From Candidatus Gastranaerophilales bacterium (lineage in GTDB: Bacteria; Cyanobacteriota; Vampirovibrionia; Gastranaerophilales; Gastranaerophilaceae): a stretch of 41,713 nt of DNA. The position numbers and the translations under genes are program-made. Shown piece by piece: positions 1,891 to 19,933 of this stretch. The notes below the pieces were generated by a model, which saw nothing but the letters and a program-made list of their open reading frames with translations, was not told the origin of the DNA and ran no database searches. The stretch spans positions 1-41,713 of the forward strand of contig JAFTSM010000017.1 in the NCBI GenBank assembly GCA_017467305.1, read 5' to 3'. The stretch's first letter is position 1. Every line of letters starts with the position of its first letter.

Positions 1891-2354
1891 TATTCTAATC
1901 CTTTAATTATACTTTCACTTTTAACACCAAAAGCAGTAAAAGTAAACTCTCTTTGAGTTTCATCAATATAATTAATATTCAAATCTATCCTATCAAAAGG
2001 AATTTCATTTTGTGAAAACTCAGCCCATTCAACCATTGTAAGAATTTTACCTTCTGAATATTCATCAAGTTCATTTATGATAGTACTAACACCTTCATTT
2101 TCAAGTCGATATAAATCAAAATGATAAACTGGAATTTTGCCGGATTTATATTCATTTAATATAACAAAGCTAGGACTTGTAACTTTTTCTTTTACACCAA
2201 GATATTTACAAACCAACTTTGTAAATGCTGTTTTACCAGCACCAACATCACCTAAAAGACAAACAAAGGCACCTTTTTCTTGAACTAAATCAGCAAACTT
2301 TTTAGCCAAGATTTCAGTATCATTAATATCTTTGCATAAAAAACTAGCAGACAT
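1890..2354 (-). CDS. tsaE: tRNA threonylcarbamoyladenosine biosynthesis ATPase TsaE
   Basis: This is a P-loop ATPase of the YjeE/TsaE family that drives turnover of the TsaB-TsaD complex in t6A synthesis. The Walker A motif GDVGAGKT lies at residues 35-42; the following TSPSFVILNEY and VYHFDLYRL blocks and the MVEWAE motif near residue 108 are all diagnostic. The 154 residues match the family. It is joined to both neighbours by TAATG stop/start overlaps, so bamA, tsaE and tsaB form one translationally coupled unit. Confidence 0.96.
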   Translation of the reverse strand: MSASFLCKDINDTEILAKKFADLVQEKGAFVCLLGDVGAGKTAFTKLVCKYLGVKEKVTSPSFVILNEYKSGKIPVYHFDLYRLENEGVSTIINELDEYSEGKILTMVEWAEFSQNEIPFDRIDLNINYIDETQREFTFTAFGVKSESIIKGLE

Positions 2355-4219
2355 TAAAAGATATCTCCAACTCCGAACGAGAAGGCACCCTTCTTATTAC
2401 CATCACCAACATTTGTAAGAGGATAACCATAATCAATAGATAAAGGTCCCATCCCTGGAATAAATAACTTAATACCAGCACCAGCAGAGATACCATATTC
2501 TGGTCTATTATATATTTTATTTGTGATAGTACCCTCATATAAGTGACCAGCATCAATAAACATAGATAATTTAATGTTATCCAAGAATCTAGCTTTTTCA
2601 ATTCTATCTAAGAAGAAAAATGGAGTAGTCAATTCTGCACTACCTAACATAAAGCCTTCACCAGTACCAATTGTACTCATTCTGTAACCTCTAACAGTGT
2701 ATGGACCACCTAATCTATAAGCCATTACTTCTGGCATATCACCGTGTATTTTACCCGCTGCACGTGCCATTAATGAGAATGAAGATTTCTTCATAACTGG
2801 GAAGTATTTTTTAATACCAGCAGCTAAAGTTGCGTGAGTAAAATCAAAGTCTGTAAAGTTAATATTTTCAGCTAGTCTTAATGTTGCTAAAACACCGTTT
2901 CTTGGGTTTAAGACATTGTCTCTAGTATCATAAACTAAACTTGGTCCAAGTGTTAAATATGTACCACCTTGCAATTGTTTAGAACGTTCTGATATTGGAA
3001 TATTATGGCGTTCATACAATCTGGCAATTTGATTGCCGTCACCCTCTTTAACTTTAATATATTCACCACCTATTTTAAATGATGCCATTAAGTTTTTATA
3101 ATTTTTGACTGGATGAGAGAAAACAACTTCGCCACCATATCTTTTTTCAATGGCTAATGGAACTTGATAGCTACCAAAATCACGACCAAACGCTTTAACT
3201 AATAAAGCTGTATCAGTTCCTTTTAGACGAGGTTCGAAGAAGCTAACCTCAGCTTGTAAATTTGCATGGTCTAAGGTTGAATTATCAGACATAATTACAC
3301 CAGTACCAGCCATAAAATTGATTCCTACACGCTGACCGTTACCCATAAAGTTATTTTCAACAAAACCAGCTTGGCCAAATAAACCAGTAGCCGTATCTAA
3401 ACCACCACCAAGAGAAATTGTACCAGTTCTTTGTTCTTCTAAAACAATCGTAACATCATAAAGGTCTTCACCTTCGTCAGCTTTATCAATTTTTCTGTTA
3501 ACATCTCTAAAAGCTTGAGTTGAATACAATCTCATCAAATCTGCTTTTAGTGTATTTTCATTATAAATACTACCAGGAGTTGATAGAATATTTCTTTCAA
3601 TTACAAAATCTTTTGTTTTTTTGTTTCCTTCAAAAGAAATAGAATTAATTTTACCTTCTTGGATTTCAATATTTATACAACCATCTGGATCATCTTGGAA
3701 ATTTGAAACTCTAGCAAGTACGTACCCCTTAGAAGCATATAAATCTTCAACATTTGCAATTGCTTCACTTAAATTCTTTAAATTTTGAGGTTGACCTTCC
3801 AATTCATTTAAAATTGTCAAAATTTCACCGGTAGATACAACAGTATTACCAGATACAGCAAACCCAGTTATTGGAATATTTTCTTCAAGATAAATTCTTA
3901 ACGTTAAAGAATCTGGATCATTAGGAATAGGAATAGCTTTCATTTTTTCAGAAAAATAACCTGTTTTGTATATAGCTTTTAAATTTTGTTGAACCAATTC
4001 CTTGCTGTATACATCGCCAAGTTGCATATTCATAACTTTTACAATATCAGATTCATTTATCAAATGGTTACCATCAAACTCAATTTTAGTAATTTTTGAA
4101 GAATCAGATATTTCTGAAGTTATATCATCATTTTGAGCAAAAGAAGAAGCATGCAACTGACAGAGTGCAAACCCCAAACATAAAATGCTCGTAACTATCT
4201 GTTTATATGTTCTTTTCAT
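2354..4219 (-). CDS. bamA: Outer-membrane assembly factor BamA/Omp85 family
   Basis: This protein inserts beta-barrel proteins into the outer membrane. The ATG start gives 621 residues, with a signal peptide ending near SSFAQ. After it come about three POTRA repeats (roughly residues 40-260, including KITKIEFDGNHLI, ITGFAVSGNTVV and INSISFEGNKKT). A C-terminal 16-strand barrel follows, with the LGPSLVYDTRDN and GGPYTVRGYR elements of the Omp85 family and a terminal Phe. An upstream TTG at 4231 with AAGG before it would add four residues. The three-POTRA layout resembles cyanobacterial Omp85 more than five-POTRA proteobacterial BamA. It proves a diderm envelope. TamA-like function cannot be fully excluded. 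Confidence 0.93.
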   Translation of the reverse strand: MKRTYKQIVTSILCLGFALCQLHASSFAQNDDITSEISDSSKITKIEFDGNHLINESDIVKVMNMQLGDVYSKELVQQNLKAIYKTGYFSEKMKAIPIPNDPDSLTLRIYLEENIPITGFAVSGNTVVSTGEILTILNELEGQPQNLKNLSEAIANVEDLYASKGYVLARVSNFQDDPDGCINIEIQEGKINSISFEGNKKTKDFVIERNILSTPGSIYNENTLKADLMRLYSTQAFRDVNRKIDKADEGEDLYDVTIVLEEQRTGTISLGGGLDTATGLFGQAGFVENNFMGNGQRVGINFMAGTGVIMSDNSTLDHANLQAEVSFFEPRLKGTDTALLVKAFGRDFGSYQVPLAIEKRYGGEVVFSHPVKNYKNLMASFKIGGEYIKVKEGDGNQIARLYERHNIPISERSKQLQGGTYLTLGPSLVYDTRDNVLNPRNGVLATLRLAENINFTDFDFTHATLAAGIKKYFPVMKKSSFSLMARAAGKIHGDMPEVMAYRLGGPYTVRGYRMSTIGTGEGFMLGSAELTTPFFFLDRIEKARFLDNIKLSMFIDAGHLYEGTITNKIYNRPEYGISAGAGIKLFIPGMGPLSIDYGYPLTNVGDGNKKGAFSFGVGDIF

Positions 4220-7246: not shown

Positions 7247-7657
7247 TTAAGCATTTAAATAAAGATTATTTTTCAAAAGCTCTTTTGTAGAATTTTTCCC
7301 GAGAAGCTGCAGCTTATCTTTTCCAAACTCATCACGAGTTCTTACGGCAAAAAGCTTATCAGAAAATAATGAGTGAACTTCAGTTTCTTTAACACCATCT
7401 TTAATTGTTGCACCAATAAACTTAGAACTACTATCTTTTGCAGACATAGTAAAAAGGCTTCTCATAATATCAGAACGTGCCATACTTGGAGAAATTACTT
7501 CAACTCTGGATTCTTTAATTAAAGGAGAACTAATTTTACTTCGATTAAACGAGCCATCAGGGTTTACTTTATGAATAATACAGGTATAATTCTTCCCTTT
7601 TAAACCATCACTTTTAATGTTCTTCTGAAACAAAAAACCAACAGCAGAGACCTTCAT
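7247..7657 (-). CDS. Unknown protein with MKVSAV...LKGK N-terminal tag
   Basis: This 136-residue protein of unknown function starts at an ATG preceded by AGGAAGCGAGG. A GTG further upstream (7684) would add nine residues but lacks a good site. There are no membrane segments. The N-terminus (MKVSAVGFLFQ, then GLKGK at about 24-28) resembles, loosely, the short head shared with the proteins at 15008, 16037 and 19328. The rest is a mixed alpha/beta globular composition with Ser/Lys-rich loops. It is preceded by a divergent TolC-like gene and converges with ccdA. No function is proposed. Confidence 0.75.
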   Translation of the reverse strand: MKVSAVGFLFQKNIKSDGLKGKNYTCIIHKVNPDGSFNRSKISSPLIKESRVEVISPSMARSDIMRSLFTMSAKDSSSKFIGATIKDGVKETEVHSLFSDKLFAVRTRDEFGKDKLQLLGKNSTKELLKNNLYLNA

Positions 7658-7794
7658 AATACCTCGCTTCCTCATAACAAACACATATATATTCTAGCAC
7701 ATTTTCAAACAGTTGTATAGCCTATAATTACAATGTTTTTCAGTGTATCTTTTACAATTATTTTGTTCAACTTATAATAGTAAAAAGGAGATAT

Positions 7795-9099
7795 TTGGAA
7801 TTGAAAAAGATACTACTTGCGTTAATTTTAATCATTACCTCTACATCTTGTTTTGCTGTTATTGATAGAGAAAAAATAACGATCAAAGAAGCAGTAGAAA
7901 TTGCGAGTAAAAATAATTTAGACATACAAGCTTCAAGAATGAATTTGCAAATTGCAGAAAACAATATAAAATCAGCAAATAGCCTGCAAAATCCTTCGAT
8001 AGGAGCACAATTTGAAATGGGGAAAGCAGGCAAAGGAAATCCACAACAAATTGGTGTAATGCAAACTATAGAGCTTGGGAAAAGAGGACCAAGGAAAGAT
8101 TTAGCTAAAGCAAATAAAGAATTAACAAAAAGAGATATTGAATATCTTGAGAATGATTTAAGAATGGATGTAAGAGAAGCTTATACTAACTTATTAGCAA
8201 AAAAAGCTGTACTTACAACAAGAATTCAACAAGAAGAAATACTGAAAGGAATGTTGGATTTTGCAAAACAAAAACATAGTAAAAACAATAGACATAGTAT
8301 TGACGTTTTACAAGCTCAACTTGAAATTAACCAAGTAACAACAGAAGTTAATTCCGCTAAATATGATGTTAAAACAGCATTATATGAATTTAATAAAGTA
8401 ATAAATTGTCCAGATGGCTTTTATGACACAATTGCAGACAATTTTACATCAGAATATAGACCACTTTCAATGCCAAAACCAACAGCCCAAATGCCTAATT
8501 TTGATGAAATATCAAATCAAGCAATGAACAATAGATTTGATATAAAAATTGCATTACAACAAATAGAAGTTGCAGAAAAAGAATTATTAGTTGAACTAAG
8601 GAAAAAAGTTCCAGACTTTGAATTAATAGGTGGATACAGTTATCAAAGCAGAGGAATGTCTGATGATGGAACTTTTAAAAATGGTGCATTTGTTGGGGTT
8701 AATTTTATAAATATACCATTGTTTTATACACATAAACCAGAAATTAAAAATGCAAAACTGAGACTAGAGCAAGCTCATCTTAATTATGCTTCTGTTGAAA
8801 ACAAAGCAGAAAATGACTTAAAAAAAGCATATGAAAAGTTTCTTACAGCACAAATTAACCTAAATTATTATAATGAAACACTATTAGCCAGCTCAGAAGA
8901 ATTAATTAAAGAATCAAGAAAAAGATACAAAGAAGGAAAAATTGATTTAACTACGCTAATTACAATGGAAGAATCATATAGAATGATTATCATTGCACAT
9001 ACATACGCACTAGCTGACTACTATAATGCTTGGAATTACTTCATAAGAGAAGTTAATAACGAGAATTTTAAAGTTACAGAAGAAACGGAAGAAGTTTAA
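7795..9099 (+). CDS. TolC-family outer-membrane efflux protein
   Basis: This is an outer-membrane channel subunit of the TolC/OEP family (434 residues). It has a signal peptide (LLALILIITSTSCFA), then two repeated OEP halves of long helical hairpins (about 30-215 and 235-425) with the usual strand segments between them. The start is TTG: either 7795 (MELKK) or 7801 (MKKILL), the second sitting ten bases after AAAGGAG. It resembles the CzcC-like branch of metal or drug efflux, but no inner-membrane pump or HlyD-type adaptor is adjacent, so the partner must be elsewhere. It ends abutting the convergent alr gene (no gap). Confidence 0.9.
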   Translation: MELKKILLALILIITSTSCFAVIDREKITIKEAVEIASKNNLDIQASRMNLQIAENNIKSANSLQNPSIGAQFEMGKAGKGNPQQIGVMQTIELGKRGPRKDLAKANKELTKRDIEYLENDLRMDVREAYTNLLAKKAVLTTRIQQEEILKGMLDFAKQKHSKNNRHSIDVLQAQLEINQVTTEVNSAKYDVKTALYEFNKVINCPDGFYDTIADNFTSEYRPLSMPKPTAQMPNFDEISNQAMNNRFDIKIALQQIEVAEKELLVELRKKVPDFELIGGYSYQSRGMSDDGTFKNGAFVGVNFINIPLFYTHKPEIKNAKLRLEQAHLNYASVENKAENDLKKAYEKFLTAQINLNYYNETLLASSEELIKESRKRYKEGKIDLTTLITMEESYRMIIIAHTYALADYYNAWNYFIREVNNENFKVTEETEEV

Positions 9100-10224
9100 C
9101 TATCTGGTATAAACTCTTGATAAACGAGCTTTTAAACGGCAAGTTAATTCATAATTAATTGTGCCGAGTTTTTCAGCCCAATCATTAATTGATATATCAT
9201 CTCCAATTAAAGTAATAATATCACCTTCATTCGCATCAATACCACTTATATCAAACATCATCTGATCCATAGTAATATTACCAACTTGAGGAACTTTTTG
9301 ACCATTCAAAATTCCATATATTTTATTTGATAATCTTCTATCAACACCATCGGCATAACCAATAGGAATAGTTGCAATTTTAGTATCTTTTTTTGCAACA
9401 AAAGTATGACAATAGCTAACGCCAGTACCAGATTTTGCCGTATGAATATTAATTATTCTACCTTTTAAACTCATAGCTGGAATTAAATTAGGAACTTCAT
9501 TAGCAAATGAAGGTAAATCTGGAACAAGACCATATAATGCAAGTCCAAGACGAACCATATTGTAATTTTTTTCTTGATACTTTGAAATCGTAGCTGCAGT
9601 ATTAAAACAATGAAGAATTAATCCTTTTGTGTCAACTTGAGAAAGAATATTATCCCAAATTTTCAATTGTTCAAGAGTTTTTTCTTCATTTTCAGCATTT
9701 GCAAAATGAGTAAATATACCTTGAAGTTCAACACATTCCAAACTTTGAACTTTTTTTATAAATTCAACAGCATAATCTTTCTCAACACCAATACGGTTCA
9801 TGCCGGTATCAAGCTTGATATGTGCTTTTGTTTTTAAACCAGTTTTTCTGTAAGTAAGCTTTGCTGCTTCAATATGATTATCTAAAAACATGGATAAAGA
9901 AATATTATTTTGTGCGGCATAATCAAACGCCCAAATAGGTGCAGCGCCTAAAACTAAAATTGGAGATTTAAATTTATTGTTTCTAAGCTCAATTCCCTCA
10001 TCAATTGAAGCAACTCCAAGATAATCGACCCCAGAGGCTAAGAGAGTAGGTGCTATCATTGAACTACCGTGACCATACGCATCAGCTTTTACTACAGCAA
10101 GAATTTTTGTTCCCTCTTTAACAAATGTTTTTAAAGAAAGAATATTTTTTTCGATTGCATCAAGGTTTATTTCAACCCAAGCATCTCTTTTTGTATTTAT
10201 GTTTGATAATCTTTGATACTTCAT
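9100..10224 (-). CDS. alr: Alanine racemase
   Basis: This PLP enzyme interconverts L- and D-alanine for peptidoglycan. The 374 residues are the family length. The PLP-binding lysine is Lys46 in AVVKADAYGHG, and the second catalytic base is Tyr271 in GTGVSYCHTF. The HIKLDTGMNRIG and MDQMMFDISG blocks are also present. No Shine-Dalgarno is visible upstream of the ATG; a TAAAAT box lies seven bases before the ATG on the minus strand, so the mRNA may be leaderless or nearly so. It is divergent from the GT-C genes, 60 bases apart. Confidence 0.97.
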   Translation of the reverse strand: MKYQRLSNINTKRDAWVEINLDAIEKNILSLKTFVKEGTKILAVVKADAYGHGSSMIAPTLLASGVDYLGVASIDEGIELRNNKFKSPILVLGAAPIWAFDYAAQNNISLSMFLDNHIEAAKLTYRKTGLKTKAHIKLDTGMNRIGVEKDYAVEFIKKVQSLECVELQGIFTHFANAENEEKTLEQLKIWDNILSQVDTKGLILHCFNTAATISKYQEKNYNMVRLGLALYGLVPDLPSFANEVPNLIPAMSLKGRIINIHTAKSGTGVSYCHTFVAKKDTKIATIPIGYADGVDRRLSNKIYGILNGQKVPQVGNITMDQMMFDISGIDANEGDIITLIGDDISINDWAEKLGTINYELTCRLKARLSRVYTR

Positions 10225-10284
10225 GATTTACATTTTAGCTTAAAAAATAAAATTTTTGATATACTTTTTTAAGAAAGAGGGAAT

Positions 10285-12027
10285 ATGAGTTTTATAAAAA
10301 ATAAATATATTTTACTTTTGCTTTTATTTATAAATGCTATTTTTTTCATTTTTTCTTTTAACCGTTTTGGGATGTTTTTTATTGATACATCAAGAGAAGT
10401 ATATGTACCAATGGCTATGAATAATGGCGCAATTTTATATAAAGATATTTTTAATGTATATTCACCCCTTGGATATCAAATAAACTCTATTCTGACCAAT
10501 ATCTTTGGTGATAATTTAAGTACATTTTATGTAATTGGTTTTGTCAATTCTCTATTATTTATTATTGGTTTTTATTTAATATCAGATTTATTTTTTAAAA
10601 GAGAAAAGTTAATTTCATTACTGATTTCCCTACTAATAACAACCTCTTGTATTTACGCTGTTTCTTTAGTCAACTACATATTCCCATATTCATATTCTGT
10701 TGTATTTTCTCTAACAATGTTTGTTTATTCATTATATTTTCTACTCAAGTACTTTAGAAATTGTGATAGAATAAACCTCCTACTTTCAAGTTTTTTCTTT
10801 GGAGTTTGCTTAGCATTAAAATATGAATTTCTTCTATTTGGAATTGTTCTTTTAGGAATAGTTTTATACAAAAAAGAAGATATCAAAACGATACTGATAT
10901 CTTTCCTTTTGTTCTTTATAGTACCATTATTTTCATTACTTTCTGTAATTGTTCAAGGATGTACAATATCAGATTTAATAAATGCAACTAAAGAAATTTT
11001 GTTATTAACTACAGCGCAAAGTGTTAAAAAATGCTATGAGTTTTTAGGCTTAATACCAACTATAAAATCGATAAAAGACTTGATTTACTATGCCTTAATA
11101 ACTATTCCTTGTATAGCTATAATATTTATACTATTCTTTAAATTACAAAAAATCAAAAAAAATTATTTGAAATTTTGCTTGATTTTATCCGGAATTTTTT
11201 TAATAACATACCTCCTTAAAAACTCATTTTTTGAAAGTAACTCATATTATTTTAATTGGATTGGCATATCAACTATATTATGCTTGTTATTACACTCTCT
11301 TTTTCTACTTAAAAAGAAAAAAAATAAAATTGTCGATAAGTTATTTTATATTTTATTAATATCAATAATTTTAGCTTCAGCTAAATGTATATGTTCTGTG
11401 AACTTCAACAATTATGGAACATACTACTTCCCATTTTTATTTTTATGTACAACTATATATTGCCACAAATATTTGCCATACCTGTTAAAAATAAAAACAA
11501 AAACAAGTTTAATCACATATAGAAACACTTTCTACTTTATATTAACAATATTGTTTTTGCTATATACACTCTCAAATATTGATAGAAGGAATTTTAGTTT
11601 TACAGAACCAATAAAGACAGATAAAGGCTGTATCTTTGTTGATAACACCAAAAATATTGCAATTAATAAGTCAATTACTTACATAAAAGAGATGACAAAA
11701 GAAGATGATACAATCCTTGTTTTACCAGAAGGAGCAATGATTAACTATCTTACAAATAGAAAATCACACAATAAATTCTATTACTTAATACCACCAAACA
11801 TAGAAGTTTTTGGTGAAGAAAATATAGTAAATGAATTAGAAAAAGATTTACCAGAATATATGATAATACAACCAATGTCTTTTAATAATTTCTATGAAAC
11901 TTATTTTTGTGAAAGTTTTGGAAAGAAAATTTGTAATTTAATTCCAAAATACTATGAAAAGCCAATCATATTTGGAGATAATTTCTGGCTAGCAATTTAT
12001 AAAAAGAAAGAGCTAAATGAAAAATAA
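10285..12027 (+). CDS. GT-C-type integral membrane glycosyltransferase (copy 1)
   Basis: This is a large membrane protein (580 residues, 11 or more hydrophobic segments). The first extracytoplasmic loop carries D34-T-S-R37-E38 and then the YKDIFNVYSPLGY block, typical of polyprenyl-phosphate-sugar-dependent GT-C enzymes (GT39/ArnT/PMT-like), where the loop acid is catalytic. A soluble C-terminal domain of about 120 residues (LPEGAMINYLTNR, YLIPPNIEVFGEE) faces the envelope. The next gene is a paralogue overlapping by 11 bases. It probably adds a sugar to a surface polysaccharide, lipid or protein; the substrate is unknown. The start has an AGAGGGA site. Confidence 0.85.
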   Translation: MSFIKNKYILLLLLFINAIFFIFSFNRFGMFFIDTSREVYVPMAMNNGAILYKDIFNVYSPLGYQINSILTNIFGDNLSTFYVIGFVNSLLFIIGFYLISDLFFKREKLISLLISLLITTSCIYAVSLVNYIFPYSYSVVFSLTMFVYSLYFLLKYFRNCDRINLLLSSFFFGVCLALKYEFLLFGIVLLGIVLYKKEDIKTILISFLLFFIVPLFSLLSVIVQGCTISDLINATKEILLLTTAQSVKKCYEFLGLIPTIKSIKDLIYYALITIPCIAIIFILFFKLQKIKKNYLKFCLILSGIFLITYLLKNSFFESNSYYFNWIGISTILCLLLHSLFLLKKKKNKIVDKLFYILLISIILASAKCICSVNFNNYGTYYFPFLFLCTTIYCHKYLPYLLKIKTKTSLITYRNTFYFILTILFLLYTLSNIDRRNFSFTEPIKTDKGCIFVDNTKNIAINKSITYIKEMTKEDDTILVLPEGAMINYLTNRKSHNKFYYLIPPNIEVFGEENIVNELEKDLPEYMIIQPMSFNNFYETYFCESFGKKICNLIPKYYEKPIIFGDNFWLAIYKKKELNEK

Positions 12028-13531
12028 AACAGAACTATTTTATATTTTATTATTGATTGTTTTTGTAATTATAGCATTTTTATTTTTTGGTAAAAATATT
12101 TATTCACCATATTCAGATATTGGTCGAGAATTATACATAACAGAACAAGTAAAAAATGGAGCTATATTATATAAAGATATTTTTAATGTATATTCACCAT
12201 TAGGATATTGGGTAAATGCATTAATAGTAAAATTATTAGGAAATCAATTAAATACTTTTTACTATATTGGTTTATCTCTATCTGTATTAACAATTATCCC
12301 AATATTTTTAATTAGTAAAGCGTACACAAATAAACATTTAGCATTTTTTATAGCACTATTTTTAGTATATTCTTGTACATTTTATCCTTCAATTTCAAAT
12401 TGGATAACCCCATATTCATATTCTATAGTATATGCTTTGTGTAGTACATTATGGTCTTTTTATTTTTTACATAGTTACATAGATAAAAAAGAAAAAAAAT
12501 ACATATACATTGCAAGCTTTTTATCCGGATTAAGTATTTGCTTCAAATATGAATTTTGTGGTCTATATATTTTTATTTTATGTGTTGCTATATATAAAAA
12601 AGAGTTTCTTAAAACTTTTTTATACAGTGTAATTATCCCAATTATTTGTTTTCTTATTTTACTTTTTCAAGGATGTACACTACAAACATTTCAAGAAGCA
12701 TTTATTTATATGATTGGTATATCTAAAAGTGATTCTACACAGTATTTTTATGAATATGCAAAAATAGCCCCAACTATTGAAAATATTAAATACTCATTTA
12801 TGAATATTCTTTATCAAAATTTTAAAAGTATTTTTGCACCAATTTGTATAATAAATTTTGTTTTATTAATAATTAATCTAAAAAGAAAAAATAAATCATT
12901 AGCATTGTTGCTTTTTGTGAGTCTTATAACTAGTATCAAATCACTTGGTGGGATATCCTTTGAAATATATGGTACATATTTCTTTCCACTATTATTTATT
13001 GCATTAGTATCAAGCTTATACAAAACAGAGAAGAAAATAAGAACAATTTATCTATGTATTATTTGTTTCATACTAACAATTTTCTATTTTTCATTCACAG
13101 TAACTGAAACAAAAAAACTGACACAAATAAACACACAAAAAGGTGAAATGAATATTCCAATAGTCTTCTACAATTCAACTATCGAAATTCTTGACTATTT
13201 AAAAGATACAAAAAATAAAAATATATTAATTTTTCCAGAAGGTACAATAATTAATTACTTAACTAATACAACTTCAGATGATTATTTATATTATTTAATT
13301 CCTCCAAATAATGATATTTTTGATGAGAGTTTTATTAAAGATAAAATAAAACAAGGAAAAATGAATTATATTATAACAACCAACATTCAATATCCTTGGT
13401 TCAATGAAAAATCATTTATGACAGGCTGGGGAAAAGAATATATAGAAATAATTAAGGAAGAATATAAACAAGAAATGATAATTGGTGAAAACCTAAAATT
13501 CTATGTTTACAAACATGATATAATTAAATAA
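12017..13531 (+). CDS. GT-C-type integral membrane glycosyltransferase (copy 2)
   Basis: This tandem paralogue of the preceding gene (504 residues) keeps the same architecture. The D34-I-G-R37-E38 loop aligns residue for residue with copy 1, and the NGAILYKDIFNVYSPLGY block is almost identical. The C-terminal soluble part repeats FPEGTIINYLTNT and YYLIPPNNDIFDE. The 11-base overlap implies translational coupling. Copy 2 is about 75 residues shorter, mainly in the middle membrane region. The pair looks like an old duplication with retained function, perhaps adding successive sugars. Confidence 0.85.
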   Translation: MKNKTELFYILLLIVFVIIAFLFFGKNIYSPYSDIGRELYITEQVKNGAILYKDIFNVYSPLGYWVNALIVKLLGNQLNTFYYIGLSLSVLTIIPIFLISKAYTNKHLAFFIALFLVYSCTFYPSISNWITPYSYSIVYALCSTLWSFYFLHSYIDKKEKKYIYIASFLSGLSICFKYEFCGLYIFILCVAIYKKEFLKTFLYSVIIPIICFLILLFQGCTLQTFQEAFIYMIGISKSDSTQYFYEYAKIAPTIENIKYSFMNILYQNFKSIFAPICIINFVLLIINLKRKNKSLALLLFVSLITSIKSLGGISFEIYGTYFFPLLFIALVSSLYKTEKKIRTIYLCIICFILTIFYFSFTVTETKKLTQINTQKGEMNIPIVFYNSTIEILDYLKDTKNKNILIFPEGTIINYLTNTTSDDYLYYLIPPNNDIFDESFIKDKIKQGKMNYIITTNIQYPWFNEKSFMTGWGKEYIEIIKEEYKQEMIIGENLKFYVYKHDIIK

Positions 13532-13547
13532 AAGATTGGGAATTATT

Positions 13548-13868
13548 ATGAATAAAGAAGAACAATTAAAAATAATAGAAGAAATGCAAGCAGTAGTTGA
13601 ACAAATGAAACTTGATGATTTAGAAGAAGATCCAAGCTTAGCAGATGAAATGTTTGAATGTTCTTGCTGCGGAAAGACTGAGTCTCTTGCTGGTTCAGTG
13701 CAATATGGTAAATACAGACTATGCAATAACTGTGTTTTACTTGCTGAGACTGGTTTAGAAATCGGTAAGTTTAAAGATGTTAATGAACTAATTAAGGCAA
13801 TGGAAGATACAAGACTTGAAGAAATGTGTGAATTTATTAAACAAGAAGAAAAAAGAGAAACAAACTAA
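13548..13868 (+). CDS. Small protein with ClpX-type C4 zinc finger
   Basis: This is a 106-residue acidic protein. A helical N-terminus of about 35 residues (Glu/Leu-rich) is followed by a C4 zinc finger, Cys38/Cys41 and Cys59/Cys62 (CSCCGKTE...RLCNNC), spaced like the ClpX N-terminal zinc-binding domain, then a helical tail. No AAA+ part is present. The ATG at 13548 is chosen over the in-frame TTG at 13536 because it is the first ATG and agrees with the spacing from GGGA. It abuts the metalloprotease gene without a gap, so the two are probably coupled. A second stand-alone finger of this type is at 36321. Possible adaptor or dimerisation module. Confidence 0.8.
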   Translation: MNKEEQLKIIEEMQAVVEQMKLDDLEEDPSLADEMFECSCCGKTESLAGSVQYGKYRLCNNCVLLAETGLEIGKFKDVNELIKAMEDTRLEEMCEFIKQEEKRETN

Positions 13869-14651
13869 ATGCACAGATTAACTTATTTAAATGAACATTT
13901 AAAAAAAGGATGCTTAATTCGTTGGCCAAACGAATGTTTCCCTTTGCCAGTATACATAGCGCCTTGTAGTTGGTATTCTATGACAGAAGCAGACAAACTT
14001 GCTTATATGAATATGGTTATTGAAGCCTTTAACACTTGGGAAAGAGTTGGTGAAGGCAAATTTTCATTCTATTTAGTTAATAGTTTAAATGATTCGCAAT
14101 TGAATGTTGAATGGAGAAGAGTTGATAGAAAATCACTAGGAAATTGTTCTTTTAACTACGACAATCAATCAAGACTTTATTCAGCAGAAGTATCAATTGG
14201 TATTTCTGATGGTATATTGCATAAACAATATATGGATGAAAATGAGGTATACCACACAATTTTGCACGAAATAGGTCACGCATTAGGTCTTGGGCACTCA
14301 ACAAACCCAGCAGATATTATGTACACACCACACCAATATGGTGTAACAACTTTATCAGAAAGAGATATAGATAGCATTAGGTGGTTGTACTCTTTACCAT
14401 ATGGCTCATCTATAAGTAGCCTAAATACTACATATTCAACAAGTTACAATAATATTGATGATATTATTATGCACATTGTTTCTGGTGAAGCAGAATCTGA
14501 ATTTCAACGAACAATGAACAATATACAACAAACACCAAAAAGAAATTTAGAGGAAGACCAGAAAAAACTTGCACAAATGGGAAGATTTAATATGGCAATA
14601 CAAAATATAAGACTTCCAAAAGAAATTACAGATAAATTTAAAGATATGTAA
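13869..14651 (+). CDS. Matrixin-like zinc metalloprotease
   Basis: This is a 260-residue metzincin-type peptidase. The zinc site HEIGHALGLGH uses His133, Glu134 (catalytic), His137 and His143, and the Met-turn methionine is Met151 in ADIMYTPH. This matches the M10/matrixin layout. No signal peptide or propeptide cysteine switch is visible, unlike secreted matrixins, so it acts either in the cytoplasm or is exported by an unrecognised route. The C-terminal 90 residues are a Ser/Gln-rich linker plus a helix. Its start codon follows the stop of the zinc-finger gene directly. The target is unknown. Confidence 0.88.
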   Translation: MHRLTYLNEHLKKGCLIRWPNECFPLPVYIAPCSWYSMTEADKLAYMNMVIEAFNTWERVGEGKFSFYLVNSLNDSQLNVEWRRVDRKSLGNCSFNYDNQSRLYSAEVSIGISDGILHKQYMDENEVYHTILHEIGHALGLGHSTNPADIMYTPHQYGVTTLSERDIDSIRWLYSLPYGSSISSLNTTYSTSYNNIDDIIMHIVSGEAESEFQRTMNNIQQTPKRNLEEDQKKLAQMGRFNMAIQNIRLPKEITDKFKDM

Positions 14652-14672
14652 TTTTTGTGCAATAATAGATAC

Positions 14673-15001
14673 GAGAGCAGTCGAACAATCGCGTATAGTT
14701 TTGACTATATGAGGAAAGTCCGAACACCTTAGGGCAGAACGACGGATAACATCCGCACGAGGCAACTCGCTGACTAGTGCCACAGAAAAGAAAACAACCA
14801 AATGGTTCAGGTGCAACGGTAGTGTAAAAGACTACCAGAGGTATTGAAAAATACCTGCTCGGTAAACTCCGTTCGGGTGCAAGATTGACTTAAAGATTAA
14901 GGTGACCCGCCATCTTTAGAAAAATCGCTTGAGCTGTAGGGCAACCTACTTCCCAGACAGATGATTGTTTAGAAACAGAATTCGGCTTATGAACTGCTCT
15001 C
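14673..15001 (+). ncRNA. rnpB: RNase P RNA (catalytic subunit)
   Basis: This is the ribozyme that removes 5' leaders from tRNA precursors. The ends form helix P1 (GAGAGCAGT at 14673 pairing with ACTGCTCTC ending 15001). Conserved elements in order are GAGGAAAGTCCGAACACC (14711 on), GTGCCACAGAAA, the GGTAAACTCC region, GCAAGATTGAC, AGGTGACCCGCC (the L15 GGU that pairs with tRNA CCA), and the 3' CAGACAGATGATTGT block with ACAGAATTCGGCTTAT. This is the ancestral type A layout at about 329 nt, with a compact P3. It lies 21 bases after the metalloprotease and ends 6 bases before the stop of the convergent gene. Confidence 0.95.
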
Positions 15002-15007
15002 ATTTTA

Positions 15008-15886
15008 TTAGAAAATAAGTGATTTATCTCGCATAAATCTTTCTAACTTTTTAATTCTTTCTTCATTTTCTTTCATATTTGGATAAGTAACAGTCGCAAC
15101 CTCACAAATATCAATTCTGTCTTTAGTTAATTCTTCATCAAGCACAGGAACTCGATCAGCAACACTTGTTGTTAAATCAAGTTTTCTATTAGCTTCAAGT
15201 CTAGTTTGAACCTTTGGCAAATTAGAACCATATATTTGTGCTGCAGATGCTCTATCTTTAATTGCAGCATAGGCACATTCTAATAAGTATCTTTTAACGG
15301 CTATCTCAATTGGTTTAATTTCCTCATAAGCAGCTTCAGAAACAGTCTTACCACCAAGGTCAACCTCATCACCATTACCAATTAATTGCAATAAAGTATA
15401 CTTACGATCTAACATCTGCTTATGAACTTCAAACCCAGCACTTATTGTAAATGCTAATGAAGGATTCATCGCAATATAATTTTGCAAACCAATAATCCTA
15501 TTAGAAATTTTATCAGATTTTGTCAGCAAAAGTTCTACACAAGGATTCTCTTCATCACGAGGCTCAATATCAATTTTATATTGGTCTGCTAAAGTTGGAG
15601 TAAAAACTTGTAAAGAAGCTGGTTTTTCTCTAAACTCTAAACGGGGATAATTAGAATAACCTCTTCTAATAAAACAATCTTGATTTGGATATAATTGTGC
15701 AATTTCATTAAATAACAATTCATCACGCCTATTTAACTTGGGGGGAAATCTAGAATCAGCTGTTCTACCTAAATCTACATTTCTCTCAACATAAATCGAA
15801 CCAAAAGAAACATCTTTTGATTTATTATTAGCCCTATTTACTTTTGGGAAAGAATTTTTAAAATTTGATATTGAAGAAATATTCAT
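15008..15886 (-). CDS. Unknown protein with MNISSI...VSFGS N-terminal tag
   Basis: This is a 292-residue protein with no recognised domain. The ATG at 15886 is chosen because GGAG lies seven bases upstream; an upstream in-frame start (15904) lacks a site. The N-terminus is a Ser/Asn-rich, apparently unstructured head ending in DVSFGS (about residue 32). This pattern recurs on the protein at 16037 and, in weaker form, on those at 7247 and 19328. The rest is a soluble mixed alpha/beta protein (for example NRRDELLFNEIAQLYPNQD) with no transmembrane segment. It is divergent from the 16037 gene. It looks lineage-restricted; no function is proposed. Confidence 0.78.
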   Translation of the reverse strand: MNISSISNFKNSFPKVNRANNKSKDVSFGSIYVERNVDLGRTADSRFPPKLNRRDELLFNEIAQLYPNQDCFIRRGYSNYPRLEFREKPASLQVFTPTLADQYKIDIEPRDEENPCVELLLTKSDKISNRIIGLQNYIAMNPSLAFTISAGFEVHKQMLDRKYTLLQLIGNGDEVDLGGKTVSEAAYEEIKPIEIAVKRYLLECAYAAIKDRASAAQIYGSNLPKVQTRLEANRKLDLTTSVADRVPVLDEELTKDRIDICEVATVTYPNMKENEERIKKLERFMRDKSLIF

Positions 15887-16036
15887 TTCAATCTCCTTAC
15901 CCAAAATAATGTGTGTAAATAAAAAAATTGCGATTTTTTTATTTATTGTAAAAAAAAATTAACATTTATTCTCTTTTTGACAATTTAAATCTTTTTTTTG
16001 CATTGAAGTAGGAGAAGTAAGGCTAGCTATAAATTT

Positions 16037-16765
16037 ATGAAAATAAGTTCTGTTCCCAATAATATAAATAATTCGAACAATAAAAAAGAAAATACTTCTT
16101 TTAAAGGTTCAACTGGAGTTATCTACTTACCAAATGTAATAGGTGAAGTAGGTAAATTTATTGGTGAACATGTTGGTATTCCAGAAAAGAAGCTTATTCA
16201 AAATACTACAGCCTTATATTTACAGCCACACTTCGATTTAAAATACGGGGAAGATGATGAGAAAGTAGATGTTGCAATAAAATCAGCATCAAAAGCAATA
16301 GCTGGTGGAATAACCGGCGTTACAATCAGAGCAGCAGCAATTTCGTTCTTTCAACGAAAAATTAATTTTGACCCACTAAATAGGTCAATAATTAACAAAT
16401 TACTTTTGCCGGAAAAAGCAGAAGAAATGTACAGAAAAAGTAACTGTTTGGCAAAGACAAGACTTAAAATGTACAATGAAACACTTGGTACAGTAGCATC
16501 AATAGCAATAATGACTTTGTTTACAAATAAAAATATTGATGTACCATTAACTGCATTTTTTCAAGATATGATAGGTGGAGTAATTAAAGAAAATAAAACT
16601 TGGTCACGTTCAATTTATGATGTTTGCGAAGAAAGACGCAAAAAATTTGAAAATTTTACAAAAGCAACAGAAGAAAAAGTTCTTACAGTAAAAAATAAAG
16701 CACAAAGAATTGTTGAAATAATAAAAAACGAAACGACAAAAGAATCAAGGGGTGAAACTAAATGA
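16037..16765 (+). CDS. Unknown protein with MKISSV...TSFKGS N-terminal tag
   Basis: This is a 242-residue protein of unknown function. The head MKISSVPNNINNSNNKKEN is Asn/Lys-rich and runs into TSFKGS at about 20-25, the clearest example of the N-terminal pattern in this window. A hydrophobic region at about 85-115 (AGGITGVTIRAAAISFF) may enter the membrane. The tail is Lys-rich and helical. An AGGAG about 20 bases upstream is poorly placed; TATAAA ends only three bases before the ATG. It overlaps the next gene by 4 bases (ATGA), so the two are translated together and probably act together. Confidence 0.75.
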   Translation: MKISSVPNNINNSNNKKENTSFKGSTGVIYLPNVIGEVGKFIGEHVGIPEKKLIQNTTALYLQPHFDLKYGEDDEKVDVAIKSASKAIAGGITGVTIRAAAISFFQRKINFDPLNRSIINKLLLPEKAEEMYRKSNCLAKTRLKMYNETLGTVASIAIMTLFTNKNIDVPLTAFFQDMIGGVIKENKTWSRSIYDVCEERRKKFENFTKATEEKVLTVKNKAQRIVEIIKNETTKESRGETK

Positions 16766-17826
16766 AAACACCTATTGATTTAGCAAAAAAATATATATTT
16801 ATTCCAGCAAATAGAATAAATAAAAAAATTCAGTCTATTAATATTTTTAAGTTTTTTAATAAAGCAGCAGATGTTGTTTTTGAATATAGTAAAGAAACAG
16901 CTCTTATCATGTTGCTAGGAGATGCTATTTCTATTTTTTCAAGCCATACTGAACAAATAAAAGGGTTGAAGAAGAGTGATAGAGAGAATAAAGATTTACT
17001 AATTGACCAAGAAAGAATTGAACGTACGATAGACTTAGTACTAAACATCATACCACCTTTTGCATTAACTAGATTTCTAAAAAAACAATTAGAAAGTGGT
17101 CAGGTCACAACAAGAAGATGGGAGCATATACTACAAAAAATAGTTGGTCCAGGTGTTGGAGCACATATTGATGAACTAAAAAGTATAAACTACATAAGAC
17201 CAGTAAAAGAAACTATTATTGGTGGTACATCTAAAGTAATACAAAAAATTTCAGAAAATCCAAAACTAAAACCAGAAGTTCAAGAATTTATAGCAAATAC
17301 AGCAAAAAACTTAATTCAAAAAATTCCAGACCTAAAAAATATGTACATCACCAAAAGTAAGGAAGAAATTGCATCCTTCTACGATGACATGGGTGATAAT
17401 GTTTCTTCAACAATTAGAAATATGTTAAGAAATGGAAGTGCCTACGATGAAATACAAGGAATGGTTAATGGCTTGTGTATTGCTGGTGTTATAGGTTATT
17501 CTATATTAGCAAGCAATGTTGTAATGCCAATCTTAAAAAACAAAATATCAAAATATAAAACAGAGAAAGATTTAGCAAAAAAAGGTGAAACAAGAGAAAG
17601 CATAAAACGTAAAAAGAGATTTGCGTATACACAACTAGAACCCGTAAGTAAAAAAAGTCAAGTTTTTGATACTTTTGATACTCCATATCAATACAAAGAG
17701 AAAAATATATTTAGTGAAGAAAAAATAAAAACACCAGAAAAACAAATAAAAAGAACTTCAAATACATTTGAAACTTTTGAAAAATATAATCAACATGCGT
17801 CTCATCCTACTGGATTGAGAATTTAG
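16762..17826 (+). CDS. Unknown partner protein with hydrophobic segment and repeated tail
   Basis: This 354-residue protein is coupled to the preceding gene by an ATGA overlap with GGGGTG before it. It is mostly amphipathic helix, with hydrophobic stretches at about 48-62 (TALIMLLGDAISIF) and 236-258 (LCIAGVIGYSILASNVVMPIL). The last ~70 residues are charged and probably disordered, with two similar short blocks, VFDTFDTPYQ and TFETFEKYNQ, about 40 residues apart. No catalytic motif is recognised. The pair resembles a two-component membrane-associated or structural unit. No database family can be assigned by eye. Confidence 0.75.
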   Translation: MKTPIDLAKKYIFIPANRINKKIQSINIFKFFNKAADVVFEYSKETALIMLLGDAISIFSSHTEQIKGLKKSDRENKDLLIDQERIERTIDLVLNIIPPFALTRFLKKQLESGQVTTRRWEHILQKIVGPGVGAHIDELKSINYIRPVKETIIGGTSKVIQKISENPKLKPEVQEFIANTAKNLIQKIPDLKNMYITKSKEEIASFYDDMGDNVSSTIRNMLRNGSAYDEIQGMVNGLCIAGVIGYSILASNVVMPILKNKISKYKTEKDLAKKGETRESIKRKKRFAYTQLEPVSKKSQVFDTFDTPYQYKEKNIFSEEKIKTPEKQIKRTSNTFETFEKYNQHASHPTGLRI

Positions 17827-17844
17827 TTTTTGTTTTATTTAGTT

Positions 17845-17850
17845 TATAAT
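17845..17850 (+). promoter_or_regulatory. Probable -10 element of tRNA-Arg
   Basis: A perfect TATAAT lies 11 bases before the mature tRNA 5' end, which is the expected distance for a short 5' leader. No convincing -35 hexamer is found 16-18 bases upstream, so this is tentative. Confidence 0.35.
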
Positions 17851-17861
17851 TAGAGATATTT

Positions 17862-17935
17862 GTGTCCGTAGCTTAATTGGATAGAGCAAAGATCTCCGAA
17901 GTCTTTAGATGTGAGTTCAAATCTCATCGGGCACA
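17862..17935 (+). tRNA. tRNA-Arg (anticodon CCG)
   Basis: The cloverleaf folds fully. The acceptor is GTGTCCG with CGGGCAC (one G-U pair); the D-arm is GCTT/GAGC; the anticodon stem AAGAT/GTCTT encloses the loop CTCCGAA with anticodon CCG (reads CGG); the variable loop is TAGAT; the T-arm is GTGAG/CTCAT with TTCAAAT; the discriminator is A. The 3' CCA is not encoded (CAAATTT follows), so CCA must be added enzymatically. It is followed 70 bases later by the 115-aa gene. Confidence 0.96.
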
Positions 17936-18005
17936 AATTTTTCTAGCCTTAAATGAAAATTTATACTATAATCAACTTATAGATTTGGTACATAGAAGGT
18001 GTAAT

Positions 18006-18353
18006 ATGGCAAAAGAATTAGATACAGTTCCAATAGAGGTTATTATTTTAACAGCAGACCATGAAATCAAAGGTACTGTTCACGTTTCTAAATATACAAA
18101 AACAAATAGAGAATTAACCGATTTATTAAACGACAGAGATAAAAGATTTATTGCTGTTACGAATGCAGAAATTCTTGTTAGAAACTCATCTGTTCCACCA
18201 AGAAGATATAACTTTTTAGAAATTCATATCGACTGTATTATGATGGTACATCCTTCAAGCCAAGTTGTATTTAGAGAAACAGGTAAAGCACAAGAAGACA
18301 TTGCTCGTTTCAGAGAGTTAAGAAATAAGTTAAACCAAACAAAACCATTCTAG
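18006..18353 (+). CDS. Small conserved protein, DUF6812-like
   Basis: This 115-residue protein starts at an ATG with AGAAGG seven bases upstream. The longer reading frame running back into the tRNA is an artefact. It is a beta-rich soluble protein: VPIEVIILTADHEIKGTVHVS, then LTDLLNDRDKRFIAVTNAEILV, then a third strand region LEIHIDCIMMVHP, with a short charged helical tail. This resembles the small family in which a nucleus of strands carries a ligand-like 'RLTDLLN...F[IV]PVT[DN]AE' motif (DUF6812 or similar, from memory). The function is unknown. It sits one base ahead of the GT9 gene and is probably cotranscribed with it. Confidence 0.8.
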   Translation: MAKELDTVPIEVIILTADHEIKGTVHVSKYTKTNRELTDLLNDRDKRFIAVTNAEILVRNSSVPPRRYNFLEIHIDCIMMVHPSSQVVFRETGKAQEDIARFRELRNKLNQTKPF

Positions 18354-18354
18354 T

Positions 18355-19347
18355 ATGAATTCTTACAAAAATATTTTGCTAATTAATTTTGGTGGAATAG
18401 GAGATGAAATCCTATTTATGCCAGTTATTCAGAATTTAAGGAAGAACTATCCGACTGCAAAAATTACACTTTGTCTAGAAGGAAGAAGTAGTGCTTTTGT
18501 TAAGTTAACTAATTTAATAGACTCATATTTTTGTATAGATATAAAAACAAAAAATAAGTATTTAGAAATGCTAAAACTATACTTCAAAGCTTTAGTAGGA
18601 AAGTATGATTTAGTAATTTCTGCTGGTGGAAATTTACTTATTGCACCACTTTTATTCTTTACCGGTATAAAAACAAGAGTTGGTTATAACACGTCATCAC
18701 TATCAAAAAAGTTTTTAACTCACTCAGTTGAATTAAACAAAAATCAATCTGCATCAATGATGTATTTTGACTTGGTTAAACCTATTACAAATGGAAAGTT
18801 TGAACTTCCTTGTATAGAAGTCAAAGAGTTAGAAAAAAATCCAAATTCTGTATTAGTTCATCCAGGAGTAAGCAAAATAAGTATTCAAAAAGACATCATA
18901 AAATCATTTAATTCAAAAGAATGGGCTGATGTTATCAAATTGCTTTTTAAAGCGGGCAAAACGGTTTATTTAGCGGGTGGTCCAGACGATACTGAATGCA
19001 TTGAAGGGATAAGAGAAGAACTTAAAAATGAAGACTTAACAAACTTTGTTGATATGTTTGGAAAAACAAAAAATATCTTTGATTTAGTAAAACTCATAAA
19101 AAGTTCAGAAATACTTATTTGTTCAGATTCAGCCCCAATGCATATTGGAGTTGCAACTAATACAAAAACAATCGCCGTTTTTGGTCCGACTGATGATGAA
19201 ACTCTTTTACCAAAATCTAATAAATTTATTGCATTAAAAAACAATGTTAATTGCAGACCTTGTCTATGGGCTAAAAGACAAACAACATGCAAAAAATTAG
19301 ATTGTTTAAAAATCGATATATCGAAAATTATCCAATTAATTCAATAG
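18355..19347 (+). CDS. Glycosyltransferase family 9 (heptosyltransferase-like)
   Basis: This GT-B fold glycosyltransferase of the WaaC/WaaF family (330 residues) typically transfers heptose to the lipopolysaccharide core at the inner leaflet. Visible marks are the N-terminal ILLINFGGIGDEILFMPVIQNLR (nucleotide-sugar enzyme loop), VLVHPGVS at about 165, and the C-terminal CSDSAPMHIGVATNTKTIAVFGPT donor-binding block. The gene starts one base after the stop of the preceding ORF without its own Shine-Dalgarno. Its 3' end overlaps the convergent gene at 19328 by 20 bases. The actual sugar is unknown. Confidence 0.92.
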   Translation: MNSYKNILLINFGGIGDEILFMPVIQNLRKNYPTAKITLCLEGRSSAFVKLTNLIDSYFCIDIKTKNKYLEMLKLYFKALVGKYDLVISAGGNLLIAPLLFFTGIKTRVGYNTSSLSKKFLTHSVELNKNQSASMMYFDLVKPITNGKFELPCIEVKELEKNPNSVLVHPGVSKISIQKDIIKSFNSKEWADVIKLLFKAGKTVYLAGGPDDTECIEGIREELKNEDLTNFVDMFGKTKNIFDLVKLIKSSEILICSDSAPMHIGVATNTKTIAVFGPTDDETLLPKSNKFIALKNNVNCRPCLWAKRQTTCKKLDCLKIDISKIIQLIQ

Positions 19348-19933
19348 TTGAATGTGTATGAGTTTCATTCTTCTCAATAAGTTTAGGATATCTATATCTT
19401 GGTATATAGAACGGTTCAGTATCACAATGTGGCTTGGTAAAATAACAGTTATCTAAATAAAAAGAAGTTGAGGAAATTGAAGGATGCAATTCAACTCTTC
19501 TTGATTTTTCTTGCTTTGACTTTTTTACCATAAACGATAACATTGTCTCACCAATGTATTTACAAGTTGCCTTATGAGAATTTAAATATGTTTGAGACGG
19601 AACCGTTTCAAGATATAAAACCTCATCAATATTTTGTGGCTTTTTAACTATTTCTGAATATGCTAAACAATCACCATCTAAATTTTCTAAGGTAAAAATA
19701 GAATAATCTTCATCCTCATCAATAGTTTTTAAATCATCTTTTAAGTAACAAAGATAGCGAGCAGACTTCCATTCTTTTGCATTACTAACTTTTTCAAAAT
19801 AATCAATATCGTCTTTTTGGCTTAAACTATATATTTGACAGGGCAAAACAGTATTCTCTTTTTTTATAACAGAACAATTTGCTACTAATGTTTTTTTGAA
19901 ACTAACCGGATTGAGTAAATTTTGAATTTTCAT
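19328..19933 (-). CDS. Unknown protein with MKIQNL...VSFKK N-terminal tag
   Basis: This is a 201-residue protein. The head MKIQNLLNPVSFKKT has the same M-K-I-Q/S start and S-F-K element, only closer together, as the protein at 16037. The body has a possible GNAT-like acyltransferase flavour (DYSIFTLENLDGDCLAYSEIV, then YIGETMLSFMVKKSKQEKSRRVELHPSISSTSFYLDNCYF), but no clear acetyl-CoA loop is seen, so this is a weak idea. There is no Shine-Dalgarno; TAAAAT sits nine bases before the ATG, suggesting a very short leader. It overlaps the GT9 gene tail-to-tail. Confidence 0.75.
   Translation of the reverse strand: MKIQNLLNPVSFKKTLVANCSVIKKENTVLPCQIYSLSQKDDIDYFEKVSNAKEWKSARYLCYLKDDLKTIDEDEDYSIFTLENLDGDCLAYSEIVKKPQNIDEVLYLETVPSQTYLNSHKATCKYIGETMLSFMVKKSKQEKSRRVELHPSISSTSFYLDNCYFTKPHCDTEPFYIPRYRYPKLIEKNETHTHSTIELIG

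Follow-up and report, generated by a model that had tools for sequence, protein, structure and literature searches.

A short two-part sequence, here called the tag, heads otherwise unrelated proteins encoded in a 41,713-nucleotide contig of a Candidatus Gastranaerophilales bacterium (JAFTSM010000017.1, assembly GCA_017467305.1; the whole contig is referred to as the window) and in congeneric genomes. This bipartite N-terminal tag heads several percent of the proteins of the genus and about 19 unrelated families beyond chance, with 34 candidate families in all. The tag is modular, because homologues and paralogues without it exist (for GH77 enzymes, a helicase, and relatives of one of the window proteins in a sister family labeled f6). 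A role as a sorting or export signal is plausible from the sequences. The reading that we favor, with a probability of roughly 0.4, is that the tag may be read by a second flagellar-type type III export apparatus and that the proteins carrying it would be exported.

The first element of the tag, box A, reads M-[K/R/N/Q]-I-[S/N] from residue 1, and the second, box B, reads [S/N/T]-F-[K/G]-[G/S/A/K] and is centered on an invariant Phe. The two are separated by a linker of 0 to about 50 residues in which Asn, Ser, Thr, and Gln are frequent and acidic residues and Leu scarce. Box B starts anywhere from residue 4 to residue 58, so some tags exceed 30 residues. The original prediction had placed such a head, common and seemingly disordered, on four window proteins with dissimilar bodies, and the open reading frame (ORF) list of the window has these proteins at 7247-7657, 15008-15886, 16037-16765, and 19328-19933 with the predicted starts. 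For the proteins at 7247 and 15008, a longer GTG or TTG frame lies upstream, and the ATG starts are backed by homologues. Alignments of homologues uphold the shared head for the proteins at 15008, 16037, and 19328 and remove it from the protein at 7247.

In the 292-residue protein encoded on the minus strand, the tag comprises residues 1-30 (15797..15886), with box A MNISSI at 15869-15886, an Asn/Ser/Lys-rich linker, and box B VSFGS (residues 26-30) at 15797-15811. Relatives of this protein were located in 39 named loci, of which 36 are assigned to Gastranaerophilales or Avigastranaerophilus, one to a Cyanobacteria bacterium, and two simply to a bacterium; the names of several isolates among them suggest herbivore or bird guts. 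These loci yielded 36 homologous ORFs, one of them cut at its 5' end, and all of the other 35 (35/35, by eye) carry both M-x-I and the box-B Phe. An alignment of 34 sequences, which includes the window protein and excludes two near-duplicates and the 5'-cut sequence, keeps Ile3 and the box-B Phe each in 34/34, and Ser4 and the box-B Ser each in 31/34. The box-B Phe is preceded by 24-43 residues, and the linker is hypervariable and cannot be aligned. The gene was present in 17/18 genomes of the genus set (the 1.85-Mb draft genome from which the window derives and 17 congeneric genomes) and in 0/11 of the other Gastranaerophilales genomes that complete our order-wide set of 29. The cargo body (15008..15796, minus strand) gave a mixed helix/strand model with a mean predicted local distance difference test score (pLDDT) of 83. 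No Pfam family was found for it, and a search of its profile against solved structures returned nothing at E<0.1, the two weak matches having E values of 0.11 and 0.21.

The 242-residue protein encoded on the plus strand carries its tag on residues 1-24 (16037..16108), with box A MKISSV at 16037-16054 and box B TSFKG (residues 20-24) at 16094-16108. Its family alignment (31 sequences including that of the window, with one near-duplicate and three starts lying too far downstream excluded) keeps the box-B Phe in 30/31 and has Ile at position 3 in 29 sequences and Val in two; 18-21 residues precede the Phe. The body (16109..16765, plus strand) gave an all-helical model and no accepted Pfam family, and two distant homologues in sister family f6 both lack the tag. 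In both of these families, the two boxes are kept on either side of an unconserved linker, and we therefore do not regard them as noise.

The third tag is compact. In the 201-residue protein encoded on the minus strand, it spans residues 1-14 (19892..19933), with box A MKIQNL at 19916-19933, box B VSFKK (residues 10-14) at 19892-19906, and a linker that is nearly nil. Relatives start MKINNMNTGINFGKRL, MQVNFSNISFKKRL, or MNISFGKKIP, and one relative (L090) shows no box B. The body (19328..19891, minus strand) belongs to a distant family of GNAT-like acetyltransferases, of which each genome has several paralogues and which occupies six places in the window's own genome; one paralogue (L033:13926-14501) matches PF00583 with an E value of 0.009, under the curated cut-off. 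Five tagged GNAT-like paralogues stand in tandem at L033:13346-16242 of the own genome, the first starting MKVSQISFGRKIP and the others MNISFGKKIP or MQISFGKKIP. The protein at 7247-7657 (minus strand, 136 residues) was rejected as a tag carrier. Its family, present in 16/18 genomes of the genus and without a Pfam domain, has an unbroken conserved start of the form M-K/N/R-V-SAVGFLFQ in which LKGK is not kept, and this rigid N-terminus without a box B marks it as a false member.

The frequency of the tag was evaluated in 1088 ORFs from sampled stretches of four congeneric genomes (the window's own, G014, G006, and G002), covering about one-third of the own genome and parts of the others, with ORFs and starts called by a purpose-written simple program. 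Two patterns were used: a first, cruder version that was run with plain starts, and a final version that was tidied after the first samples of the own genome and a looser trial in G014 and G006 had been inspected, and for which the caller favored starts yielding box A and box B was sought in residues 4-65. With the final pattern, box B was found in 33/83 box-A proteins vs 67/1005 others (p = 1.5e-15), and in the control stretch of residues 71-132 it was found in 3/83 and 45/1005, respectively. The excess persisted with one representative per homology cluster (23/62 vs 42/723, p = 1.5e-11; control stretch 141-202, 4/62 vs 16/723, p = 0.07), which is the source of our figure of about 19 families beyond chance. 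Among the 622 short k-mers occurring at least four times in the search of residues 5-65 of box-A proteins, the most enriched was SFG (p = 8e-7). Setting aside the window and the stretches of first sighting left 22/57 vs 56/760 (p = 5e-10), which is not a strict hold-out, because the pattern had been tidied after samples were inspected and the caller preferred box-A starts, a preference that also raised the number of box-A proteins.

The pattern was also commoner than in shuffled N-termini, the comparison by which the original prediction was to be judged, with first-pattern counts of 3 vs 0.15 in the window and of 11/226 vs 0.75 and 6/263 vs 0.70 in two samples of the own genome, the sample counts containing a few evident chance matches. 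In G014 and G006, a looser pattern failed to exceed the best of 100 shuffles. These comparisons, together with the dissimilarity of the tagged bodies, between which BLAST detected no similarity, bear on the explanation that the head is either inherited among distant homologues or low-complexity noise. Inheritance does hold for the family of the 7247 protein and for the GNAT-like paralogues among themselves, and the strictly unseen ORFs, searched with the first pattern and plain starts, were only modestly enriched (13/80 vs 48/737, p = 0.004; p = 0.003 for the own-genome sample L029-48, and singly non-significant for G014, 0.15, G002, 0.2, and G006, 0/9). Against this explanation stand the excess that remains per cluster, the presence of the tag in unrelated Pfam families, and the existence of untagged homologues, and of all the alternatives we hold it to be the least probable. 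Because the tests on unseen samples are modest, the case for the tag rests most firmly on how well it is conserved inside families and on the pooled counts.

The same data speak to a translation-initiation or mRNA element, in which A/T-rich early codons would aid expression and the peptide motif would be only apparent. Box A is rich in Lys, Ile, and Asn, as A/T-rich early codons predict, but box B lies as far in as residue 58 with its amino acid retained, and residues 71-132 show no excess. Codons at both boxes were mixed, broadly like the background (Phe, Lys, Gly, Asn, and Ile); the exceptions, which favor such an element, were the box-B codons for Ser (TCT, 14/24 vs 0.32) and Ala (GCG, 4/10 vs 0.08), small numbers that include recent paralogues. 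We consider an mRNA element very unlikely.

A wider pattern identified 118 tagged ORFs, which fall into 39 families; targeted loci inflated two of these families, and the removal of five by eye left the 34 candidate families. The families removed were L013:127, L013:8839, L023:18914, L177:17978 (FlgC), and L222:10100 (the family of the 7247 protein); a phosphoribosyl pyrophosphate synthetase with a box-A start (L012:15145) was likewise not counted, its F-K-G-G being probably part of the fold. In the own-genome sample, 31/534 ORFs in 0.59 Mb were tagged by the wider pattern, which extrapolates to about 97 per genome. Box B accompanied 34/56 wide box-A proteins vs 92/478 others and 10/45 in a control stretch, so that about one-fifth of box-A proteins would match by chance and about 70 per genome is nearer. 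Tagged genes were adjacent more often than expected (nine pairs vs 1.7), in part because of the GNAT-like array. Outside the genus, the strict tag was found in 0/13 box-A proteins of families f2-f5 and f7 and in 3/9 box-A proteins of f6 vs 13/297 (p = 0.008).

The genes at 15008 and 16037 lie head to head in the window (15008-16765) and do so within 1 kb in 31/31 of the loci in which both were found, among the 39 named. The 3' end of the 15008 gene adjoins an RNase P RNA on the opposite strand (RF00010, 234 bits, 14673-15005, plus strand); this RNA and a tRNA were the only matches of an Rfam scan of the window at gathering scores. Elsewhere in the window, a Matrixin-like (Peptidase_M10) protein (13869-14651, plus strand) has an N-terminus without an evident signal peptide, and a protein named BamA-like by inspection (2354-4219) has an ordinary-looking one.

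The physical character of the head was evaluated from structure models and composition. In AlphaFold models, residues 1-27 of the 15008 protein (34 sequences) had pLDDT<50 and the confident fold started right after box B, and residues 1-25 of the 16037 protein (31 sequences) had pLDDT<50, with that model, which is of modest confidence, remaining weak to about residue 50 (predicted template modeling score 0.55). The linkers of 33 strictly tagged ORFs (451 residues, boxes left out) were enriched over background in Asn (0.204 vs 0.064), Ser (0.091 vs 0.062), and Thr (0.095 vs 0.054), as well as in Gln, and depleted of Leu (0.035 vs 0.088), Asp (0.022 vs 0.059), and Glu (0.035 vs 0.075). Residues 2-26 of 34 representatives, compared with 936 ORFs, were enriched in Ser (p 4e-7), Thr (p 0.015), and Pro (p 0.0065) and depleted of Leu (p 7e-11) and acidic residues (p 1.5e-7), a comparison in which the pattern itself favors Ser and Asn. 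In the part of their study drawn on here, Arnold et al. (2009, PMC2669295) describe type III effectors as enriched, over their first 25 residues, in Ser, Thr, Pro, and coil and depleted of Leu and acidic residues; apart from Asn and Gln, the composition of the heads is this profile. The heads are polar and lack a hydrophobic core in their first 30 or so residues, which sets them apart from Sec and lipoprotein signals. A short, modular, Phe-centered N-terminal head that is predicted to be disordered would also suit a degron, a tag for regulated proteolysis read by a Clp-type unfoldase. Its bipartite form with a freely variable linker, and its retention across orthologous families and on large enzymes, argue against such a role, which we regard as improbable.

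Cargo was assigned from Pfam matches at the curated cut-off, with weaker matches flagged. Above the cut-off, the tagged proteins include a dikinase with PPDK_N and GWD1_pHisD domains (L018:1378), a calcineurin-like phosphoesterase (L024:11140), a DEAD/DSHCT helicase (L036:1336), a GH77 enzyme (L161:6706), an alpha-amylase of family GH13 (L171:524), a protein combining an FHA domain with a calpain-type protease (L012:1556), and, barely over the cut-off, a PARP catalytic domain (L012:415); in sister family f6, a sigma-70 factor (L067:7175) also passes it. Kinase-like (L173:12288), GNAT-like, and HNH matches fell under it, and the remaining tagged proteins that were scanned gave no Pfam match. 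Searches against solved structures returned only FHA domains for the calpain/FHA protein and only phosphoenolpyruvate synthases for the dikinase. A PADLOC defense scan of ten proteins gave matches for the DEAD helicase only, and we take these to be generic helicase similarity. Some tagged proteins carry internal hydrophobic segments.

Two of these families illustrate the modularity of the tag. The best GH77 match is an untagged, canonical enzyme in 16/18 genomes of the genus; of the other two genomes, one has a fragment at a contig edge as its best match and the other a tagged enzyme. Tagged GH77 paralogues were found in the own genome (L038 and L270, with L257 a looser case), G014, and G017, and in sister families f6 (L268, and loosely L265) and f7 (L264, and L263 with M-E-I-S); in GH77 of f4 and f2, box B is preceded by a different start. 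The helicase occurs in a form of about 765 residues and, beside it, in one of about 1000 residues. In the two genomes of the genus read for it (G014 and G010), the reading frame of the shorter form is too tight to hold a tag; of the longer form, 11/14 of the N-termini retrieved have box B.

We also searched the genomes for a machine that might read the tag. FHIPEP, the type III export gate protein, was present in 29/29 genomes, with two full-length classes. The high-scoring one (E about 1e-264), presumably flagellar FlhA, was found in 10/11 of the other genomes of the order and in 0/18 of the genus. Members of the second class (E values of about 1e-206 to 1e-216) occur in 17/18 genomes of the genus (the 18th has a fragment) and in 10/11 of the others. 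Flagellin was detected in 11/11 of the other genomes vs 2/18 of the genus, one of the two being a fragment. One genome of family f2 (G024) has five flagellin matches and no high-scoring FHIPEP, which a gap in the draft may explain. For FliP, too, a second class with lower scores was present in 17/18 genomes of the genus.

The second FlhA gene lies in a putative export operon that was located in two genomes, neither with a flagellin match (L009:15796-19252 with L287:259-7060, and L177:9882-19484). The run encodes a FliI/SctN-type ATPase, FliH, FliF, FliE, a lytic transglycosylase, and FlgB/FlgC/FlgE-F-G-like rod proteins; the Pfam names were taken mainly from the G002 copies, and the own genome has the identical gene order, with a SpoIID-like gene adjoining the run. 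FliM/N-like, FliO, FliP, FliQ, and FliR genes form a separate cluster (in G014). The parts of a type III apparatus (FliPQR, FlhA, FliI, FliH, and FliF) were thus found, those beyond FlhA and FliP in one or two genomes. The second FlhA of G002 scores under the equivalog cut-offs for both FlhA (TIGR01398, 667.4 vs 772.1) and SctV (TIGR01399, 589.6 vs 692.25) and shares 37.5-40% identity with four FlhA of the high-scoring class. Between the two genomes with the located operon, the identity of the second FlhA is 93.7%, as against 48% for their 15008 proteins. Because flagellin is rare in the genus and the second FlhA is nearly universal and conserved, the genus appears to have lost the flagellum yet to have retained an export apparatus under strong constraint. 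A separate soluble protein of about 486 residues that consists of the FlhA/SctV cytosolic domain only was found in 29/29 genomes (L040:17663-19123 and L151:17794-19257, both minus strand) and is a possible substrate receptor. Two other candidates for a delivery machine of the genus were rejected: a VirB4-type type IV secretion system, as the VirB4 ATPase was found in 1/29 genomes (G001, making 1/18 in the genus) and is absent from the window's own genome, and an extracellular contractile injection system (eCIS), as the sheath protein PF04984 was found in 0/18 genomes of the genus and in 4/11 others of the order.

If the tag is an export signal, it would act as an address label read by one common receptor, for which the second flagellar-type export apparatus of the order is the best candidate. 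Recognition at the FlhA/SctV cytosolic domain or the export gate might involve the apolar box-A residues and the box-B Phe, whereupon the soluble body would be unfolded and passed through the apparatus. The exported cargo (glucan enzymes, the calpain-type protease, PARP-type, kinase-like, and GNAT-like proteins, and the helicase) would then act outside the cell or in a neighboring cell, while the untagged paralogues would perform equal chemistry in the cytosol. We place this explanation first because it fits the composition of the tag, its predicted disorder, its layout in two elements, and the type of cargo, and because this apparatus is the only candidate delivery machine that we found in the genus, type II, type VI, type VII, and type IX secretion systems not having been searched. 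A more far-reaching version, which we put forward as doubtful, is that a filament-less second type III system of the Gastranaerophilales, kept after the loss of motility, may export 70-100 proteins bearing the two-box tag, including tagged duplicates of glucan enzymes and eukaryote-like enzymes, perhaps into gut protists, other microbes, or host cells.

Several observations weigh against export by this apparatus. The machine is found throughout the order and the strict tag is far rarer outside the genus, so their co-occurrence is weak evidence. The rod-type proteins of the apparatus itself bear no tag (by inspection), and box B differs from the F-x-x-x-hydrophobic gate recognition motif (GRM). 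Compact tags such as MNISFGKK fall short of the spacing of at least 19 residues that, in the part of PMC8983047 used here, FlgD of Salmonella needs. The low pLDDT of the heads is partly expected, because the linker cannot be aligned. The 15008 gene is conserved and mostly single-copy, unlike typical effectors. A sigma-70 factor of sister family f6 with a tag-like start, MKINFNTISFKSG (L067:7175-8191, minus strand, genome G027), is expected to act inside the cell, and two tagged proteins (L021:7456-10680 and L169:11192-14080) run on from the tag into a hydrophobic stretch that bears a lipobox-like LAGC or LSGC and resembles a lipoprotein signal. The cargo that needs ATP (the helicase and the dikinase) and the f6 sigma factor also argue against simple Sec-like release into the medium.

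The main alternative, a serious rival that we judge possible, is an intracellular address or docking tag, whose boxes would attach the protein to a scaffold, glucan granule, membrane site, or compartment inside the cell and so hold tagged isozymes apart from their untagged cytosolic paralogues. The ATP-using cargo, the sigma factor, the several glucan enzymes (GH77, GH13, and the PPDK_N dikinase with GWD1_pHisD), the near-universal tagged 15008 gene, the internal hydrophobic segments, and the compact tags set directly at the fold are all in its favor. Its difficulties are that a helicase, a protease, a PARP-type enzyme, and an amylase share no obvious organelle, that the head composition fits type III signals, and that no shell or scaffold gene was noticed, although none was specifically searched for.

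Whichever of the two is correct, several percent of a proteome, much of it unannotated, are united by one testable motif. Should the tag be an export signal, a single pattern would predict a large part of the secretome of this uncultured order of gut bacteria, and their partial flagellar gene sets would gain a function. Should it be an intracellular address, these non-photosynthetic relatives of cyanobacteria would have a compartment or docking site that has not yet been described.

Our searches of the openly licensed PMC literature turned up no description of either the tag or a second export system. Partial flagellar gene sets have been described for the Gastranaerophilales (PMC5877343, PMC4451040) and, judging from the portions of those accounts drawn on here, probably include the second export system; the same portions distinguish no separate conserved export system and mention no tag. 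In the part of PMC7935935 used here, chlamydial storage-sugar enzymes (of glucan and trehalose metabolism) are proposed as type III substrates; that case concerns another phylum and another machine, and no shared two-box tag is mentioned there. Sec and lipoprotein signal peptides are, like the tag, N-terminal addresses on unrelated proteins, but they differ in having a hydrophobic core. To our knowledge, classical type III signals share no common motif. Type III effector signals, as they are treated in the relevant part of PMC2669295, occupy about the first 25 residues, are disordered or coil, and head unrelated cargo. The tag resembles them in its composition and in its unrelated cargo; its heads have low pLDDT in two models, and some tags extend past residue 30. 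It differs from them in having a definite two-box motif with a near-invariant Phe. Early flagellar substrates, according to the part of PMC8983047 used here, have an N-terminal apolar signal and a second motif, the apolar residues of FlgD lying at positions 2-5. The tag is similar in its two elements, its replaceable linker, and a first element of small apolar N-terminal residues, with Ile or Val at position 3 in 34/34 proteins of the 15008 family and 31/31 of the 16037 family. It is unlike this dual signal in that box B (SF[KG][GSAK]) has no fixed hydrophobic residue at +4 (by inspection), in that the spacing goes down to near zero, and in that the cargo consists of enzymes and not of rod or hook parts. 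Because the second motif differs and the spacing rule is broken, we do not file the tag under the signals of early flagellar substrates.

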